Of a stretch of 64,000 nt of DNA, positions 26,303-31,868 are shown piece after piece. Each line of letters opens with the position of its first letter. Position 1 is the stretch's first letter. Both the position numbers and the translations under genes were made by a program. The notes beneath the pieces are model-generated. The model ran no database searches. It worked only from the letters and a program-made list of their open reading frames with translations, and was not told where the DNA came from. The DNA is taken from contig NZ_JABVEC010000028.1 in NCBI RefSeq assembly GCF_014323705.1, forward strand, positions 1 through 64,000, given 5' to 3'. Source of the stretch: Actinomadura alba (GTDB lineage: Bacteria; Actinomycetota; Actinomycetes; Streptosporangiales; Streptosporangiaceae).

Positions 26303-26959
26303 TCAGGGTTCGACCAGGCCGGCGCGAATGGCGTAGCGGGTCAGTTCGAGCCGATCGCGCATGCCGAGCTTCTGCAGGATGTTCGCGCGGTGCCGGTCGA
26401 CGGTCTTCACGCTGATGACGAGCATCTCGGCGATCTCCTTCGCGGAATTGCCCTCGGCGATCAGCTTGACGACCTCCTCTTCGCGAGGGGTCAGGATGCT
26501 CTCCGGCAGGCGGTCGCCCTGCCGGTCGCGCTGGAGGTAGTCGCGGATGAGGGCGGTGATCGCACCGGGGTAGAGGAAGGGTTCGCCGCGCATCGCCGCC
26601 CGGCACGCCTCCAGGAGGTCGCGGTCGGCGACCGACTTGAGCACGTAGCCCGAGGCGCCCGCCTTGAGCGATTCGAAGAAGTACTGCTCGTTGTCGTACA
26701 TGGACAGAATCAGGATGCGGATGCCGGGCTCGCGCCTGGAGATCTCGCGGGCCGCCTGGATGCCGGTCATGCGGGGCATCGCGATGTCGAGGATGGCCAG
26801 GTCGATCTCAGCGGCCGAGGCCGCCTCGACCGCCTCGGCGCCGTCGGCCGCCTCCGCGACCACTCTGAGGTCGGGTTCGGCGTCGAGGATCAGCCGTAGC
26901 CCACGGCGCACCAGCGTGTGATCGTCGGCCAGCAGGATCCGGGTCTCAGATGTGTGCAC
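26303..26959 (-). CDS. NarL/FixJ-type response regulator
   Basis: This 218-aa protein has a receiver domain with the acidic pocket DDH (about 12-14), phospho-acceptor D in DLAILDIAMP and K in LKSVADRD. A GerE/LuxR helix-turn-helix (LTPREEEVVKLIAEGNSAKEIAEMLVISVKTVDRHRANIL) completes it. The GTG start is 5 bases after the stop of its histidine kinase, so they form one operon. The target genes are not evident from the sequence. Confidence 0.93.
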   Translation of the reverse strand: MHTSETRILLADDHTLVRRGLRLILDAEPDLRVVAEAADGAEAVEAASAAEIDLAILDIAMPRMTGIQAAREISRREPGIRILILSMYDNEQYFFESLKAGASGYVLKSVADRDLLEACRAAMRGEPFLYPGAITALIRDYLQRDRQGDRLPESILTPREEEVVKLIAEGNSAKEIAEMLVISVKTVDRHRANILQKLGMRDRLELTRYAIRAGLVEP

Positions 26960-26964
26960 CGGGT

Positions 26965-27978
26965 TCAGCTCCGCTTCGCCGTGTGGGGTATGACCAGGCG
27001 CACCTCGGTGCCGCCGCCGGGCGGGGCGTCGATGGTGAGGCGGGCCCCGATGAGAAGGGCGCGCTCGCGCATGCCGCGGATCCCGGCCCCCTCATGCAGC
27101 ACCCCTCCGCGCCCGTCGTCGGTGATGCTCAGGGTCAGATCGCCGGCTCCCGCGGTGAGCGACAGCGTCACCCGGGTGGCGCGAGCGTGCCTGGTGACAT
27201 TGGTAAGGCTCTCCTGCGCGATCCGGTAGAGGACGAGTTCGGCCTCCGCGCTCAGGTGGGGCAGGTCGGGGTCGGCCCTGCGGGTGACCGGTACCCCGCT
27301 GAGCCGCGAGAAGTCGCTGCTGAGAGCACTCAGCGCGCTCTGCAGGCCGAGATCCTCCAGCACGCCGGGGCGCAGCCTGCGGGCCACCTGGCCGACCTCG
27401 TCAAGACTGCCGCGGACCGTCTCCTGTACTGCCTGCAGTTCCTCGCGAAGATCATCTGGGGCGCGGTCCACCGCGCTCTTCAGGCCCAAGAGCACCACCG
27501 TGAGGCTCTGGCCGATCTCGTCGTGCAGTTCGCGTGCGATGCGCTGCCGTTCGCCCTCCTGCGCCGCCAGGGCGTGCGCGCTGCTCGCGCTGCGTTCCGC
27601 CTCAAGCCGGTCCAGCATCGCGTTGAACGTGTCGATCAGGTGGGTGAGATCGCCGTTGCCGCTGTCGGTGAGCCGGTCTCCGGTGCGTAGCAGGTCGACT
27701 CGCTGCATCAGGGTGGCCAGCGCTCCGAGCGGCGCGAGGCTCGTGCGCAGCAACAGCGCGTTGGCGGTGAGGATGATCGCCAGTCCGACTATCAGGATCG
27801 GCACCTCGGTGAGCAGGACCGGCGACGACACCGTGGCGGGAGAGACCGCGAGCGCCAGCGTCCCGACCGTGAACACCAGCCCGTTGATGAGGAACAGCCG
27901 GCGGAACAGCGCTTGCGCGGGGGTGTGCACGCGTGGCCCGGATCTCGGCTTACCCCTTCTGCGGGCGCGGTCTCTCAT
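26965..27978 (-). CDS. NarL-type sensor histidine kinase (HisKA_3)
   Basis: The 337-aa kinase begins with a basic segment and two hydrophobic helices (LFLINGLVFTVGTLALAV and VPILIVGLAIILTANALLL) with almost no extracytoplasmic loop. A HAMP-like helix and the HisKA_3 dimerisation box ERQRIARELHDEIGQSL with the phospho-His follow. The ATPase domain has N box QESLTNVTRHA and G1 DDGRGG. The ATG at 27978 gives a compact start; longer frames run into the next promoter. The near absence of an external loop suggests membrane or intracellular sensing. Confidence 0.88.
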   Translation of the reverse strand: MRDRARRRGKPRSGPRVHTPAQALFRRLFLINGLVFTVGTLALAVSPATVSSPVLLTEVPILIVGLAIILTANALLLRTSLAPLGALATLMQRVDLLRTGDRLTDSGNGDLTHLIDTFNAMLDRLEAERSASSAHALAAQEGERQRIARELHDEIGQSLTVVLLGLKSAVDRAPDDLREELQAVQETVRGSLDEVGQVARRLRPGVLEDLGLQSALSALSSDFSRLSGVPVTRRADPDLPHLSAEAELVLYRIAQESLTNVTRHARATRVTLSLTAGAGDLTLSITDDGRGGVLHEGAGIRGMRERALLIGARLTIDAPPGGGTEVRLVIPHTAKRS

Positions 27979-28150
27979 CACACCAGCCTCATCCCCGGCA
28001 GGCACCTTTGTCCATTCGGCGTGACCCCCACTACGCACCCGCTCCTGCACCTTCCACCCCATGTCAGATGGGTGCTGGACCCAATGGTGGCGGTGGCCGG
28101 CGCTGCCGAGACTGGATGAAGGCACCGCAGGGCACGAGGGAGGTGATCAC

Positions 28151-28756
28151 GTGGTCGCGACAGGTCCGCACGCGCCGCTCGCCGGGAGCACGGCTCTCAC
28201 CCTGGCCGTCACGACGGGTCTGCTCCTTGCCGTGTTCGTGGTCTGCGCCTTCCGGGTCGTCGCCGAAGGCGAGCGGCTGGTGGTGTTCCGCTTCGGCCGG
28301 CTCGCCGCCGTCCAGGGCCCCGGCCTGGTCGTCGTGTTGCCGGGCGTCGATCGTGGGGTGCGCGTTTCCCTGGGCACGGACTACGTCGACCTCCTCTGGC
28401 TCGAAGCCGTCACGCGTGACGACGTGAAGGTGACCGTCAACGGCGCCGCACTGGCGACCGTGAGTGATCCGGTCTCGTACGTCCGCCACCCGGAGCCGCC
28501 GGTCTCGGCCACGGTCGCGGCGGCCGAGGCGGAGATCCGCGGATACGTCGCGGAACGCGACCTGGCGGAGCTGGTGGAACCGTCGGAGGCCGACCGGCGC
28601 GAGCTGTCGGCCAGAATCAGCCGCCGCACCCGCGTGTGGGGCGTCGAGGTCACGCTCGTCGAGTTCTCCCGGGTGCAGCTCCGGCTCCAGGCGGACCTGA
28701 TCCGCTGGGCCGAGGGCTTCGCCGACCGCGCCAGGCGCGTCGGGCGGACATCGTGA
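28151..28756 (+). CDS. Slipin/SPFH (band 7) domain protein
   Basis: This 201-aa protein has one N-terminal membrane helix (TALTLAVTTGLLLAVFVVCAF) and a band 7 domain starting VVAEGERLVVFRFGRLAAVQGPGL, the slipin signature. It is shorter than typical slipins (about 250 aa), lacking the C-terminal oligomerisation tail. GTG at 28151 follows GGGAGG by 7 bases. Slipins scaffold membrane microdomains and often regulate channels. Its stop overlaps the next small gene by GTGA, and the CBS protein and transporter follow. A function in organising that transporter is plausible but unproven. Confidence 0.85.
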   Translation: MVATGPHAPLAGSTALTLAVTTGLLLAVFVVCAFRVVAEGERLVVFRFGRLAAVQGPGLVVVLPGVDRGVRVSLGTDYVDLLWLEAVTRDDVKVTVNGAALATVSDPVSYVRHPEPPVSATVAAAEAEIRGYVAERDLAELVEPSEADRRELSARISRRTRVWGVEVTLVEFSRVQLRLQADLIRWAEGFADRARRVGRTS

Positions 28757-28881
28757 ACCCGGAAGGCGTGGTGCGCCGCTCGGATGAGGAAGGCACCCGC
28801 GACCTGACCCGCCGAACCCTTCCCGGCCGGCTCACCGCGCTCGAGCACGGTCCCGCCGAGATCACCGGAGATATGCCATGA
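28753..28881 (+). CDS. Small 42-aa protein between slipin and CBS genes
   Basis: A GTG start overlaps the slipin stop (GTGA) and the stop overlaps the CBS start (ATGA), so this frame fills the gap exactly. The product begins [18 protein letters not shown] and has no hydrophobic segment; it is rich in Arg, Glu and Thr. Third codon positions are mostly G or C, as in neighbours. No family is recognised. The double overlap is the main evidence that it is translated; it might serve mainly to couple ribosomes from slipin to the CBS gene. Confidence 0.6.
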
Positions 28882-29384
28882 CCCGGCCGAGGACGGCCCG
28901 TCGCCCCGCCAACCGGAATGGTGCAATGCAAGCACGCGATATCGCCGTCAACGTACCGACCGTGACCGTGACCGACCCCGTGACCAAGGCAGTGCGGGTG
29001 ATGGTGGTGGGCCGCCTACCCGGGTTGATCGTCGTGGACGGCGGGATGCGCCCCCGGATGGTGCTCTCGGGCACCCAGGTGCTGCGCCTGGCGGTCCCGG
29101 GGTCCTACCAGGAGGATCCGGCGCTCGCCCGGACGATCGACGAGACCTACGCCGACCGGTTCTGGCAGGAACTCGGTGACCTCACTGTGGGCGACTGCCT
29201 ACCGCACCGGCCGGCCAAGCCGGTGACCGTACCGCTCGAGGCGACCTTGCTCGAAGTGGCCGCGCTCATGACCCGGCTGGGCAGCCCCCTCGTCGCGGTC
29301 GTCGACGGCAGCGGAGTCCTCGCCGGAGCGATCACCTTGGAGCGCCTGCTCACCAGCCTGGCCATCGCCGCGCCCGGCGACTGA
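28878..29384 (+). CDS. CBS domain-containing protein
   Basis: The 168-aa protein contains a pair of CBS motifs. The first covers about residues 18-65 ([36 protein letters not shown]). The second covers about 110-160 ([31 protein letters not shown], then [23 protein letters not shown]). CBS pairs bind adenine nucleotides and regulate enzymes and transporters. ATG at 28878 overlaps the 42-aa gene's stop and has CCGGAGA 7 bases upstream. With an ion transporter 240 bases downstream, it probably gates or senses for it. Confidence 0.87.
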
Positions 29385-29489
29385 ACCGGCCCCAGCGACC
29401 CACCGCCGGCACGACCGGACGCGTGCCGCTGAACCACGCCCCCCTGGGCCCCCACCGCCGCAGTGCACACATCGTCCGGAGGTCATCTC

Positions 29490-29627
29490 ATGTACCGCTG
29501 TCCCGTCCCTACGCCATCACGGCGTGTCCCGCCACCACCGACCGGCCGGACGACCGGCGGCTCATGCCTCACCCGGGCGAACCCGGCCGCCACCATGTGC
29601 GCCGGACCACCGGGGCGTGAGCAGTGA
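29490..29627 (+). CDS. 45-aa leader peptide translationally coupled to the transporter gene
   Basis: A strong GGAGG lies 7 bases before ATG 29490. The frame runs 45 codons and ends at TGA 29625-29627, overlapping the transporter GTG by GTGA. The transporter itself has no good ribosome site and an in-frame stop two codons upstream, so its translation should depend on ribosomes finishing this peptide. The product (MYRCPVPTPSRRVPPPPTGR at its start) is rich in Pro, Arg and Thr with three Cys. It resembles a regulatory leader rather than a folded protein; proline runs could stall ribosomes. Confidence 0.6.
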   Translation: MYRCPVPTPSRRVPPPPTGRTTGGSCLTRANPAATMCAGPPGREQ

Positions 29628-30910
29628 GCGCTGCCATTGCTTTCACGATCTTCATCGTGGCGTTCTTCTTCATCGCCACGGAGAAGGCGAACAAGGTCAA
29701 AGTGGTGCTCATCGCCGCCGGTGCGATGGCGGTCCTCGGGCTCATCCCCGGCAAGGAGGTGTTCTTCTCCGAGCACGAGGGCATCGACTGGAACGTCATC
29801 TTCCTGCTACTGGGCATGATGATCATCGTCGGGGTCATCAAGCAGACAGGGCTCTTCGACTATCTCGCCATCTGGGCGGCCAAGAAATCGCGGGGGCAGC
29901 CGTACCGGCTCATGGTCATGCTGATGATCATCACCGCGATCGCCTCACCGTTCCTCGACAACGTCACCACCATCATGCTGGTCGCGCCGGTCACGGTGAT
30001 GGTCTGCGACCGGCTGCGCATCCCCGCCCAGCCGTACCTCATCGCCGAGGTCCTCGCCTCGAACATCGGTGGCGCGGCGACGCTCATCGGCGACCCACCC
30101 AACATCATCATCGGCAGCCGCGCCGGGCTCACCTTCAACGACTTCCTCGCCCACATGGCACCGGTCGTGATCGTCATCTTCGTGGTGTTCGTGCTGTTCA
30201 CCAGGGTGCTCTTCCGCAAAGCCTTCCGCTACAACCCCGACCACGTCGCCGCGGTCATGGCGCTGCAAGAGCGGCGGGCCATCACCGACCCGTGGTTGCT
30301 CGCCAGGTGCATGGGCGTACTCGCCGGCGTCGTCGCCGGGTTCGGCCTGCACTCCGTGGTGCACGTGGAACCCTCCATCGTCGCCCTCGTGGGCGCCGGC
30401 GTGATGCTGCTGGTCTCCCGTGCGGACGTGACAGGCGTCATGCGCGAGGTGGAGTGGACGACTCTGGTCTTCTTCATGGGCCTGTTCGCGATGGTCGCCG
30501 GGCTCTCCCATACGGGTGTCATCTCGGCCATAGGCACCCGGGTCGTGGACGCCCTCGGCGACGACCACTTCTTCGCGGCGACCGCGCTGCTGTTCGGCTC
30601 GAGCGTGCTGGGCGCCTTCTTCGACAACATCCCCTACGTCACCACGATGGCCCCCATCGTCGAGGGAATGGCCGCGCAGGTGCCCGACCCGCAGACGGAA
30701 CAGGCCCTGTGGTGGGCCTTCGCCCTGGGCGCCGATCTCGGCGGCAACGGCACCGCCGTGGCGGCCAGCGCCAATGTGGTCGCCATCGGCATCGCGGCCC
30801 GCACCGGGCACCCCATCAGCTTCTGGCAGTTCACCAAGTACGGCATCGTGGTCACCGCGTTCAGCACGCTGATCGCGTGGGCCTACGTCTGGCTGCGCTA
30901 TTTCAGCTGA
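29624..30910 (+). CDS. ArsB/NhaD family ion transporter
   Basis: This 428-aa IT-superfamily permease has about eleven helices. The two re-entrant family motifs are NIGGAATLIGDPPNIIIGS in the first half and GADLGGNGTAVAASANVVA in the second. These match the NhaD/P-protein/ArsB group, which exchange sodium for protons or extrude arsenite; the motif set does not decide which. The GTG start is forced by an in-frame stop at 29618-29620. The gene follows the slipin-CBS genes and the 45-aa leader, and two strong hairpins follow it. Confidence 0.9.
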   Translation: MSAAIAFTIFIVAFFFIATEKANKVKVVLIAAGAMAVLGLIPGKEVFFSEHEGIDWNVIFLLLGMMIIVGVIKQTGLFDYLAIWAAKKSRGQPYRLMVMLMIITAIASPFLDNVTTIMLVAPVTVMVCDRLRIPAQPYLIAEVLASNIGGAATLIGDPPNIIIGSRAGLTFNDFLAHMAPVVIVIFVVFVLFTRVLFRKAFRYNPDHVAAVMALQERRAITDPWLLARCMGVLAGVVAGFGLHSVVHVEPSIVALVGAGVMLLVSRADVTGVMREVEWTTLVFFMGLFAMVAGLSHTGVISAIGTRVVDALGDDHFFAATALLFGSSVLGAFFDNIPYVTTMAPIVEGMAAQVPDPQTEQALWWAFALGADLGGNGTAVAASANVVAIGIAARTGHPISFWQFTKYGIVVTAFSTLIAWAYVWLRYFS

Positions 30911-30993: not shown

Positions 30994-31100
30994 TCGCCGC
31001 CTAGCGTCGGCCGCATGACGCTCTCGTGGGACACCGGCCGGCGGACGGCCTGGCGCACCCCCGCCCCGGTCCGGGCGGCGGGAGCCCTCGAGGACACGGT

Positions 31101-31868
31101 GTGACGCCCGGGGAGATGCTCGCCGTGTTCGCGGCGGGCGTCAGTGCCGGCGCCATCAACGCCGTCGTCGGCTCCGGGACCCTGATCACCTTTCCCGTTC
31201 TGCTCGCCGTCGGCCTGTCACCCGTCACCGCCACGGTGTCCAACGCACTCGGGGTGATCCCCGGCTCCATCAGCGGAGCCGTCGGCTACCGAAGGGAACT
31301 CGGCGGCCAGGGCGGGCGGATCCTGAAGTTGAGCGCCGGCGCCCTGCTGGGTGGCCTCGCGGGCGCCACGCTCCTGCTGGCCCTGCCCGCCACGGCGTTC
31401 GAGGTGATCGTGCCGGCCCTGGTCGGCCTCGCCCTCGTCCTGGTCGTGCTCCAGCCCCTGATCGGCAGAAGCGTGCGGCATCGCCGCGAACCGACCGGCG
31501 ACTCCCCGCGCCGCGACGGTGGCCCGCTGCTGTTCACCGGCCTGACGCTCGCCAGCGTCTACGGCGGCTACTTCGCCGCCGCGCAGGGAATCATCTACAT
31601 GTCCCTGATGGGCATGCTCCTTGATGAGCCTCTGCAACGGCTGAATGCCGTCAAGAACGTGCTCGTCGCCGTCGTCAACGCCGTCGCCGCGCTCTTCTTC
31701 CTCTTCGTCGCGGACTTCGACTGGACGGCCGTCGTACTCATCGCGGCCGGTTCCGCCCTCGGCGGCCAGATCGGGGCCAAGGTAGGCCGCCGCTTCAGCC
31801 CCGCGGTCCTACGAACCCTCATCGTGACGATCGGTACCGCCGCCATCGTCCATCTGCTGCTCCACTGA
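31101..31868 (+). CDS. Sulfite exporter TauE/SafE family permease
   Basis: This 255-aa protein has about eight hydrophobic segments. The family repeat appears near both ends: MLAVFAAGVSAGAINAVVGSGTLITFPVLL and TLASVYGGYFAAAQGIIYMSLMGM. Members export sulfite, sulfoacetate or other organic anions. GTG at 31101 is chosen because the first helix follows within six residues; the ribosome site (CGAGG at about 31089) is weak. It is separated from the NhaD-type gene by terminators, so it is probably expressed on its own. Confidence 0.86.
   Translation: MTPGEMLAVFAAGVSAGAINAVVGSGTLITFPVLLAVGLSPVTATVSNALGVIPGSISGAVGYRRELGGQGGRILKLSAGALLGGLAGATLLLALPATAFEVIVPALVGLALVLVVLQPLIGRSVRHRREPTGDSPRRDGGPLLFTGLTLASVYGGYFAAAQGIIYMSLMGMLLDEPLQRLNAVKNVLVAVVNAVAALFFLFVADFDWTAVVLIAAGSALGGQIGAKVGRRFSPAVLRTLIVTIGTAAIVHLLLH

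Follow-up and report, generated by a model that had tools for sequence, protein, structure and literature searches.

We propose that in Actinomadura alba a translated leader gates the synthesis of an ion transporter, through a slow Pro-Pro-Gly step that would take place directly over the ribosome site and the start codon of the transporter gene. We hold this reading with moderate confidence, and it draws on the comparison of the locus with its orthologs.

The window, by which we mean the whole stretch of DNA that was analysed, comprises 64,000 nucleotides. The leader open reading frame (29490..29627, forward strand; 45 codons and TGA) opens with an ATG at 29490, preceded at a 7-nt spacing by a GGAGG Shine-Dalgarno sequence (29478..29482, forward strand). 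Both the Shine-Dalgarno sequence and starts in the leader frame are also found in orthologs. The leader translates as MYRCPVPTPSRRVPPPPTGRTTGGSCLTRANPAATMCAGPPGREQ, followed by the stop. This stop codon (TGA, 29625-29627) lies across the transporter start codon (GTG, 29624-29626), forming a GTGA overlap on the forward strand (29624..29627), and the transporter frame contains an in-frame stop two codons 5' of the GTG. All of these features had been named in a first-pass annotation and were confirmed. The annotation had also claimed that the transporter has no ribosome site of its own. This is not quite right: a weak GGGG (29612..29615, forward strand) stands 8 nt from the GTG. This site, which recurs in orthologs, overlaps the last glycine codon of the leader tail A-G-P-P-G (leader codons 38-42; 29601..29615, forward strand), the candidate pause site that emerged from the ortholog comparison.

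The transporter gene (29624..30910, forward strand) encodes a CitMHS/ArsB-like protein of 428 aa of the ion transporter superfamily, as judged by family scan and structure relatives. In the family scan, the protein lies above the broader Pfam cut-offs for CitMHS and ArsB, below the NCBIfam cut-offs for ArsB (112.6 bits vs 457, 100.1 vs 415 and 90.9 vs 760) and also under those for NhaD and MamN. Its structure-bearing sequence relatives are an arsenical pump and VcINDY. On the 5' side of the leader lies a CBS-domain gene (28878..29384, forward strand), which in many leaderless orthologs shows direct or close coupling with the transporter. It is preceded by a Band 7/SPFH gene (28061..28756, forward strand; 15 of the 84 related loci) and by a divergent pair on the reverse strand, which we take, from sequence and established knowledge, to be a histidine kinase (26965..28125, start codon uncertain; 70/84 loci) and a LuxR-type response regulator (26303..26959; 65/84 loci). 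The pair adjoins CBS-transporter genes both with and without a leader, and is a candidate for transcriptional control of the operon. A TauE/SafE-type permease gene (31026-31868) directly 3' of the transporter was matched in only 1 of the 84 loci and hence falls outside the conserved neighbourhood.

Transporter orthologs were drawn from whole genomes and 80 genome contigs. Once three duplicates had been dropped, the final set held 85 loci with at least 73% identity. In the short-gap class (n = 30), fewer than 90 nt separate the end of the CBS gene from the transporter start, or the two overlap; in the long-gap class (n = 55), the distance is greater or was unmeasured, as no CBS gene was located or it falls outside the contig. 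Counted back from the overlapping stop, codons -6 to -4 spell Pro-Pro-Gly in 39/55 long-gap loci but in only 1/30 short-gap loci, against a background of 0.13% (0.0013) per upstream position. Because the 85 loci are related by shared ancestry, nominal p-values overstate their independence and are too optimistic. Among the 39 loci with Pro-Pro-Gly, 31 have a GGAGG-preceded start in the leader frame and none has one in either of the other two frames (0/39 and 0/39), a test that is independent of the tail motif. The other 8 leaders are without a GGAGG-preceded start by this strict test; in most of these, a start behind a weaker site was assigned by hand. Long open frames are usual in GC-rich DNA and many orthologs are leaderless, as would be expected of a chance ORF without function, but this explanation is ruled out by the frame test together with the Pro-Pro-Gly enrichment, and we give it practically no weight. 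The leader ORF is real, beyond chance, and the comparison between loci indicates that it is translated.

The leader is patchily distributed across the transporter tree, where at least 15 changes between presence and absence of a Pro-Pro-Gly leader are needed. The first-pass annotation had looked to conservation upstream of homologous transporters, which the 39 long-gap loci bear out, although many orthologs are leaderless. In these leaderless orthologs, the CBS stop is mostly at most 85 nt from, or over, the transporter start, so that the loci appear to have in common an upstream cistron from which ribosomes are delivered. We infer that the leader may take over ribosome delivery where the CBS gene is more distant. 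The weak GGGG occurs within the ribosome-site window in 35/55 long-gap and 12/30 short-gap loci, and nearly all of these 12 are leaderless.

Several loci depart from the common arrangement. In three Microbispora loci (L056, L065 and L107), AUU stands in the place of the start codon at normal GGAGG spacing, and a fourth (L091) has AUC there and a leader of 42 codons. In all four, the nearest in-frame ATG lies 15 nt downstream. These four leaders possibly use a non-standard start. Six Herbidospora loci (L005, L045, L049, L059, L062 and L073) have a 10-codon leader, mostly MPTVPLVRPG or MPTVPLARPG, which overlaps the transporter start yet ends in RPG, without Pro-Pro. In Kribbella sandramycini (L104), the end of the CBS gene, which encodes DPPGAV, overlaps the transporter start and may thus place Pro-Pro-Gly at the junction without any leader. 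A broken transporter copy from the same genus as the window (L111, G001:C11:15500-19500) is 90% identical in DNA, with pieces missing and the start region absent, and so has no leader for comparison. It is preceded by reverse-strand sequence resembling response regulator and kinase genes, and its state reflects either decay or an assembly error.

The tail consensus of the 39 leaders is [A/T/S]-G-P-P-G-x-x-x-stop, with three variable residues before the stop. Pro-Pro-Gly at -6 to -4 was the choice criterion for these loci, whereas glycine at codon -7 (36/39), A/T/S at codon -8 (36/39) and the frame results were unselected. At Gly -7 and Pro -6, the third bases vary (A20 G10 C7 T2 for Gly -7) and the first and second are fixed. 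In the tail proline codons, CCC and CCT are avoided and CCA is enriched (10/78 vs 1.4% expected), although the tail codon statistics rest on loci picked for CCNCCNGGN. The same signature, with CCC/CCT avoided and CCA enriched, has been reported for translated diprolines (PMC8129111). We infer from this pattern that the tail is probably conserved at the peptide level. The Gly -7 codon is GGA in 20 of 36 leaders vs 4% in transporter genes; no explanation was found for this excess. Elsewhere in this genome, the tail motif has three further matches, none at a leader-gene junction, and a family-wide search with R-[AST]-G-P-P-G gave matches that, for the most part, seemed to have nothing to do with the leader.

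The last tail glycine codon is GGG in 38 of the 39 leaders, and can be read as the weak ribosome site of the transporter itself. This poses the question whether the leader does no more than bring in ribosomes and open a hairpin, CCGG-NCCN-CCGG, with Pro-Pro as a by-product of nucleotide constraint and nothing being regulated. The four-base overlap of stop and start, the near-invariant GGG and the biased GGA codon would suit such plain coupling, as would the proposal, from a survey of Actinobacteria, that leader genes near starts raise initiation (PMC4833913). The hairpin over the transporter ribosome site is predicted for the window, and 25/39 loci can form all four of its pairs. However, RNAalifold revealed no conserved structure around the tail and no covariation, and CCA as the second proline codon breaks a pair in 5/5 loci without compensation, on which grounds a conserved hairpin was rejected. 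That Gly -7 and Pro -6 vary at the third base but not at the first and second also speaks against a nucleotide by-product, as does the fact that leaderless loci do not retain the motif. We therefore consider plain coupling unlikely, though of all the rival explanations it deserves the most attention.

Unlike the tail, the leader body appears to be near neutral. Leaders with an assigned start are 13-50 codons long, most bodies are too diverged for alignment across genera, and in alignable pairs the differences by codon position are 112/100/128. The entry is kept, with CGGAGG and its spacing in most leader loci; in a search for a conserved element 5' of the leader, only GGAGG was strongly conserved, and it was GGAGG that anchored this alignment. 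Nearly all selection thus seems to act on entry and exit, which suggests that the leader is probably a slow-down gate for transporter synthesis and not a sensor made up of the remaining peptide. The earlier idea that the peptide senses ions or arsenicals fares poorly: a body that drifts almost neutrally makes a ligand-sensing peptide unlikely, the cysteines are not kept, and the transporter scores below the NCBIfam ArsB cut-offs. A conserved cysteine sensor was rejected, as the three cysteines of the window are not conserved across the 39 leaders, although 25/39 have some cysteine before the tail. The proposed stall at VPPPPTG (29526..29546, forward strand) was likewise rejected, with kin only in L036 and L052 (RVPPPST). 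What survives of it is a proline motif as the likely pause, found in 39 orthologous loci, with GPPG at codons 39-42 as the conserved site.

Could the tail be a genuine RAGP/RAPP-type arrest peptide, in which R-[ATS]-G-P-P-G stalls the ribosome and a signal acting on the nascent chain within the tunnel would lift the stall? Arginine occupies codon -9 in 20/39 leaders, many of which read RAGP, RTGP or RSGP as in SecM-type motifs, and RAGP arrests in SecM and YwcI (PMC10987492). The arginine is not conserved, however, and the window has cysteine in its place (C-A-G-P-P-G). Neither a signal peptide nor a conserved N-terminus was seen, the bodies evolve neutrally and may comprise no more than 13 codons, and AGPP served as a non-arresting comparison motif (PMC12992588). 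An arrest peptide is thus improbable.

In the gate that we favour, ribosomes would load at the strong GGAGG, cross a body of little sequence importance and arrive at Pro-Pro-Gly on top of the weak GGGG. A ribosome footprint reaches about 15 nt downstream. With Pro 41 in the P site, the footprint would therefore lie over the GGGG and touch the GTG, so that a slow Pro-Pro-Gly step should block fresh initiation on the transporter. After Pro-Pro-Gly, the ribosome would terminate at the overlapping TGA and reinitiate at the GTG. Transporter output would then follow the ease with which Pro-Pro-Gly is crossed, and hence EF-P, prolyl and glycyl tRNA supply and the general translation state. The frame, the overlap and the peptide-level tail rest on sequence comparison; reinitiation, pausing, occlusion and the signal are the interpretive steps of this model. 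The claim that transporter synthesis is tied to leader translation gains support in that the coupling of leader end and transporter start is conserved in 39 loci.

Strong EF-P-dependent pauses have been reported for Pro-Pro-Gly, strongly modified by upstream residues, and many such motifs give no pause in vivo (PMC4140641). EF-P is encoded in this genome, and in actinomycetes its levels reportedly build up in early stationary phase (PMC11611912). Counting against the gate are these motifs that give no pause, the non-arresting AGPP motif mentioned above, the double explanation of the GGG codon, which also serves as ribosome site, and the GGA excess at -7, which peptide-only constraint does not predict.

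The ribosome at Pro-Pro-Gly may alternatively act on transcription, by shielding the transcript from Rho or by shaping an attenuator, so that a pause raises transporter mRNA. Precedents exist in CruR (PMC9426467) and MgtL/MgtP (PMC6460261), and some loci have strong hairpins between CBS gene and leader. Against this, there is no conserved structure around the pause, Rfam gave nothing credible for the window region and seven relatives, the intergenic hairpin of the window is not significant (P about 0.17), and the exact distance between Pro-Pro-Gly and the transporter start suggests that initiation is the step affected. Transcriptional control accordingly finds little credence with us. The strong hairpins are terminator-like and occur in L035, L057, L061, L085, L091, L093 and L094; a terminator or attenuator between CBS gene and leader was rejected, as none is significant in the window.

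Taken together, a broader picture may be put forward tentatively, as one that we find plausible but short of probable: the leaders would form a patchy actinomycete family whose sole conserved peptide part is a GPPG pause exactly on the downstream ribosome site, a gauge of EF-P/diprolyl capacity that sets transporter synthesis by occlusion and then reinitiation. If this is true, it shows that selection can fix a minimal Pro-Pro-Gly step, with neither arrest peptide nor RNA switch, at a single precise position as a control on the gene that follows. Since leader, variant-tail and leaderless loci all occur naturally, the part that EF-P pausing plays in gene control would be open to direct tests in actinomycetes.

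The leader shares features with several known systems, of which MgtL/MgtP, CruR and the RAPP/RAGP arrest peptides come nearest. Like the RAPP/RAGP peptides (SecM, ApdA, ApdP, ApcA, the RQH family and YwcI; PMC10987492, PMC12992588), it is an upstream ORF with a proline-containing C-terminal motif and a variable N-terminal part, and half of the leaders have arginine three residues before the first proline. In contrast to those peptides, the arginine is not conserved, the motif is AGPP/TGPP/SGPP, no protein-localisation gene follows, and no localisation signal or transmembrane segment was seen on reading the leader sequences, which are polar and rich in Arg, Pro and Ser. The leader is not placed in this arrest-peptide family. 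In the copper uORF CruR of Bordetella pertussis (PMC9426467), a proline motif also stands few residues before the stop, upstream of a transporter gene. However, CruR is 145 aa long and has a conserved CXXC metal site, whereas the leader has no conserved cysteine. MgtL/MgtP of the Salmonella Mg2+ transporter genes is likewise a short proline-containing leader before a transporter gene, with EF-P-sensitive pausing that acts on transcription through an attenuator (PMC6460261). Conserved leader proline codons are found here as well (Pro-Pro at -6 and -5 in 39/55 long-gap loci), but the leader runs with its stop codon into the transporter start, conservation is confined to the C-terminal GPPG, and neither RNAalifold around the tail nor Rfam pointed to conserved or alternative structures or an attenuator. 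The leader also resembles the reinitiation leader genes of Actinobacteria, short ORFs that lie near the start of a structural gene and are proposed to raise initiation. The survey of these genes left out overlaps and peaked at 10-11 bp, and its accessible part did not describe a conserved peptide tail (PMC4833913). Here, a translatable short ORF ends over the downstream start. The leader thus fits the reinitiation leader-gene class and adds to it a conserved diprolyl tail, of which we found no description in the open-access literature searched, and which sets this leader apart within the class.
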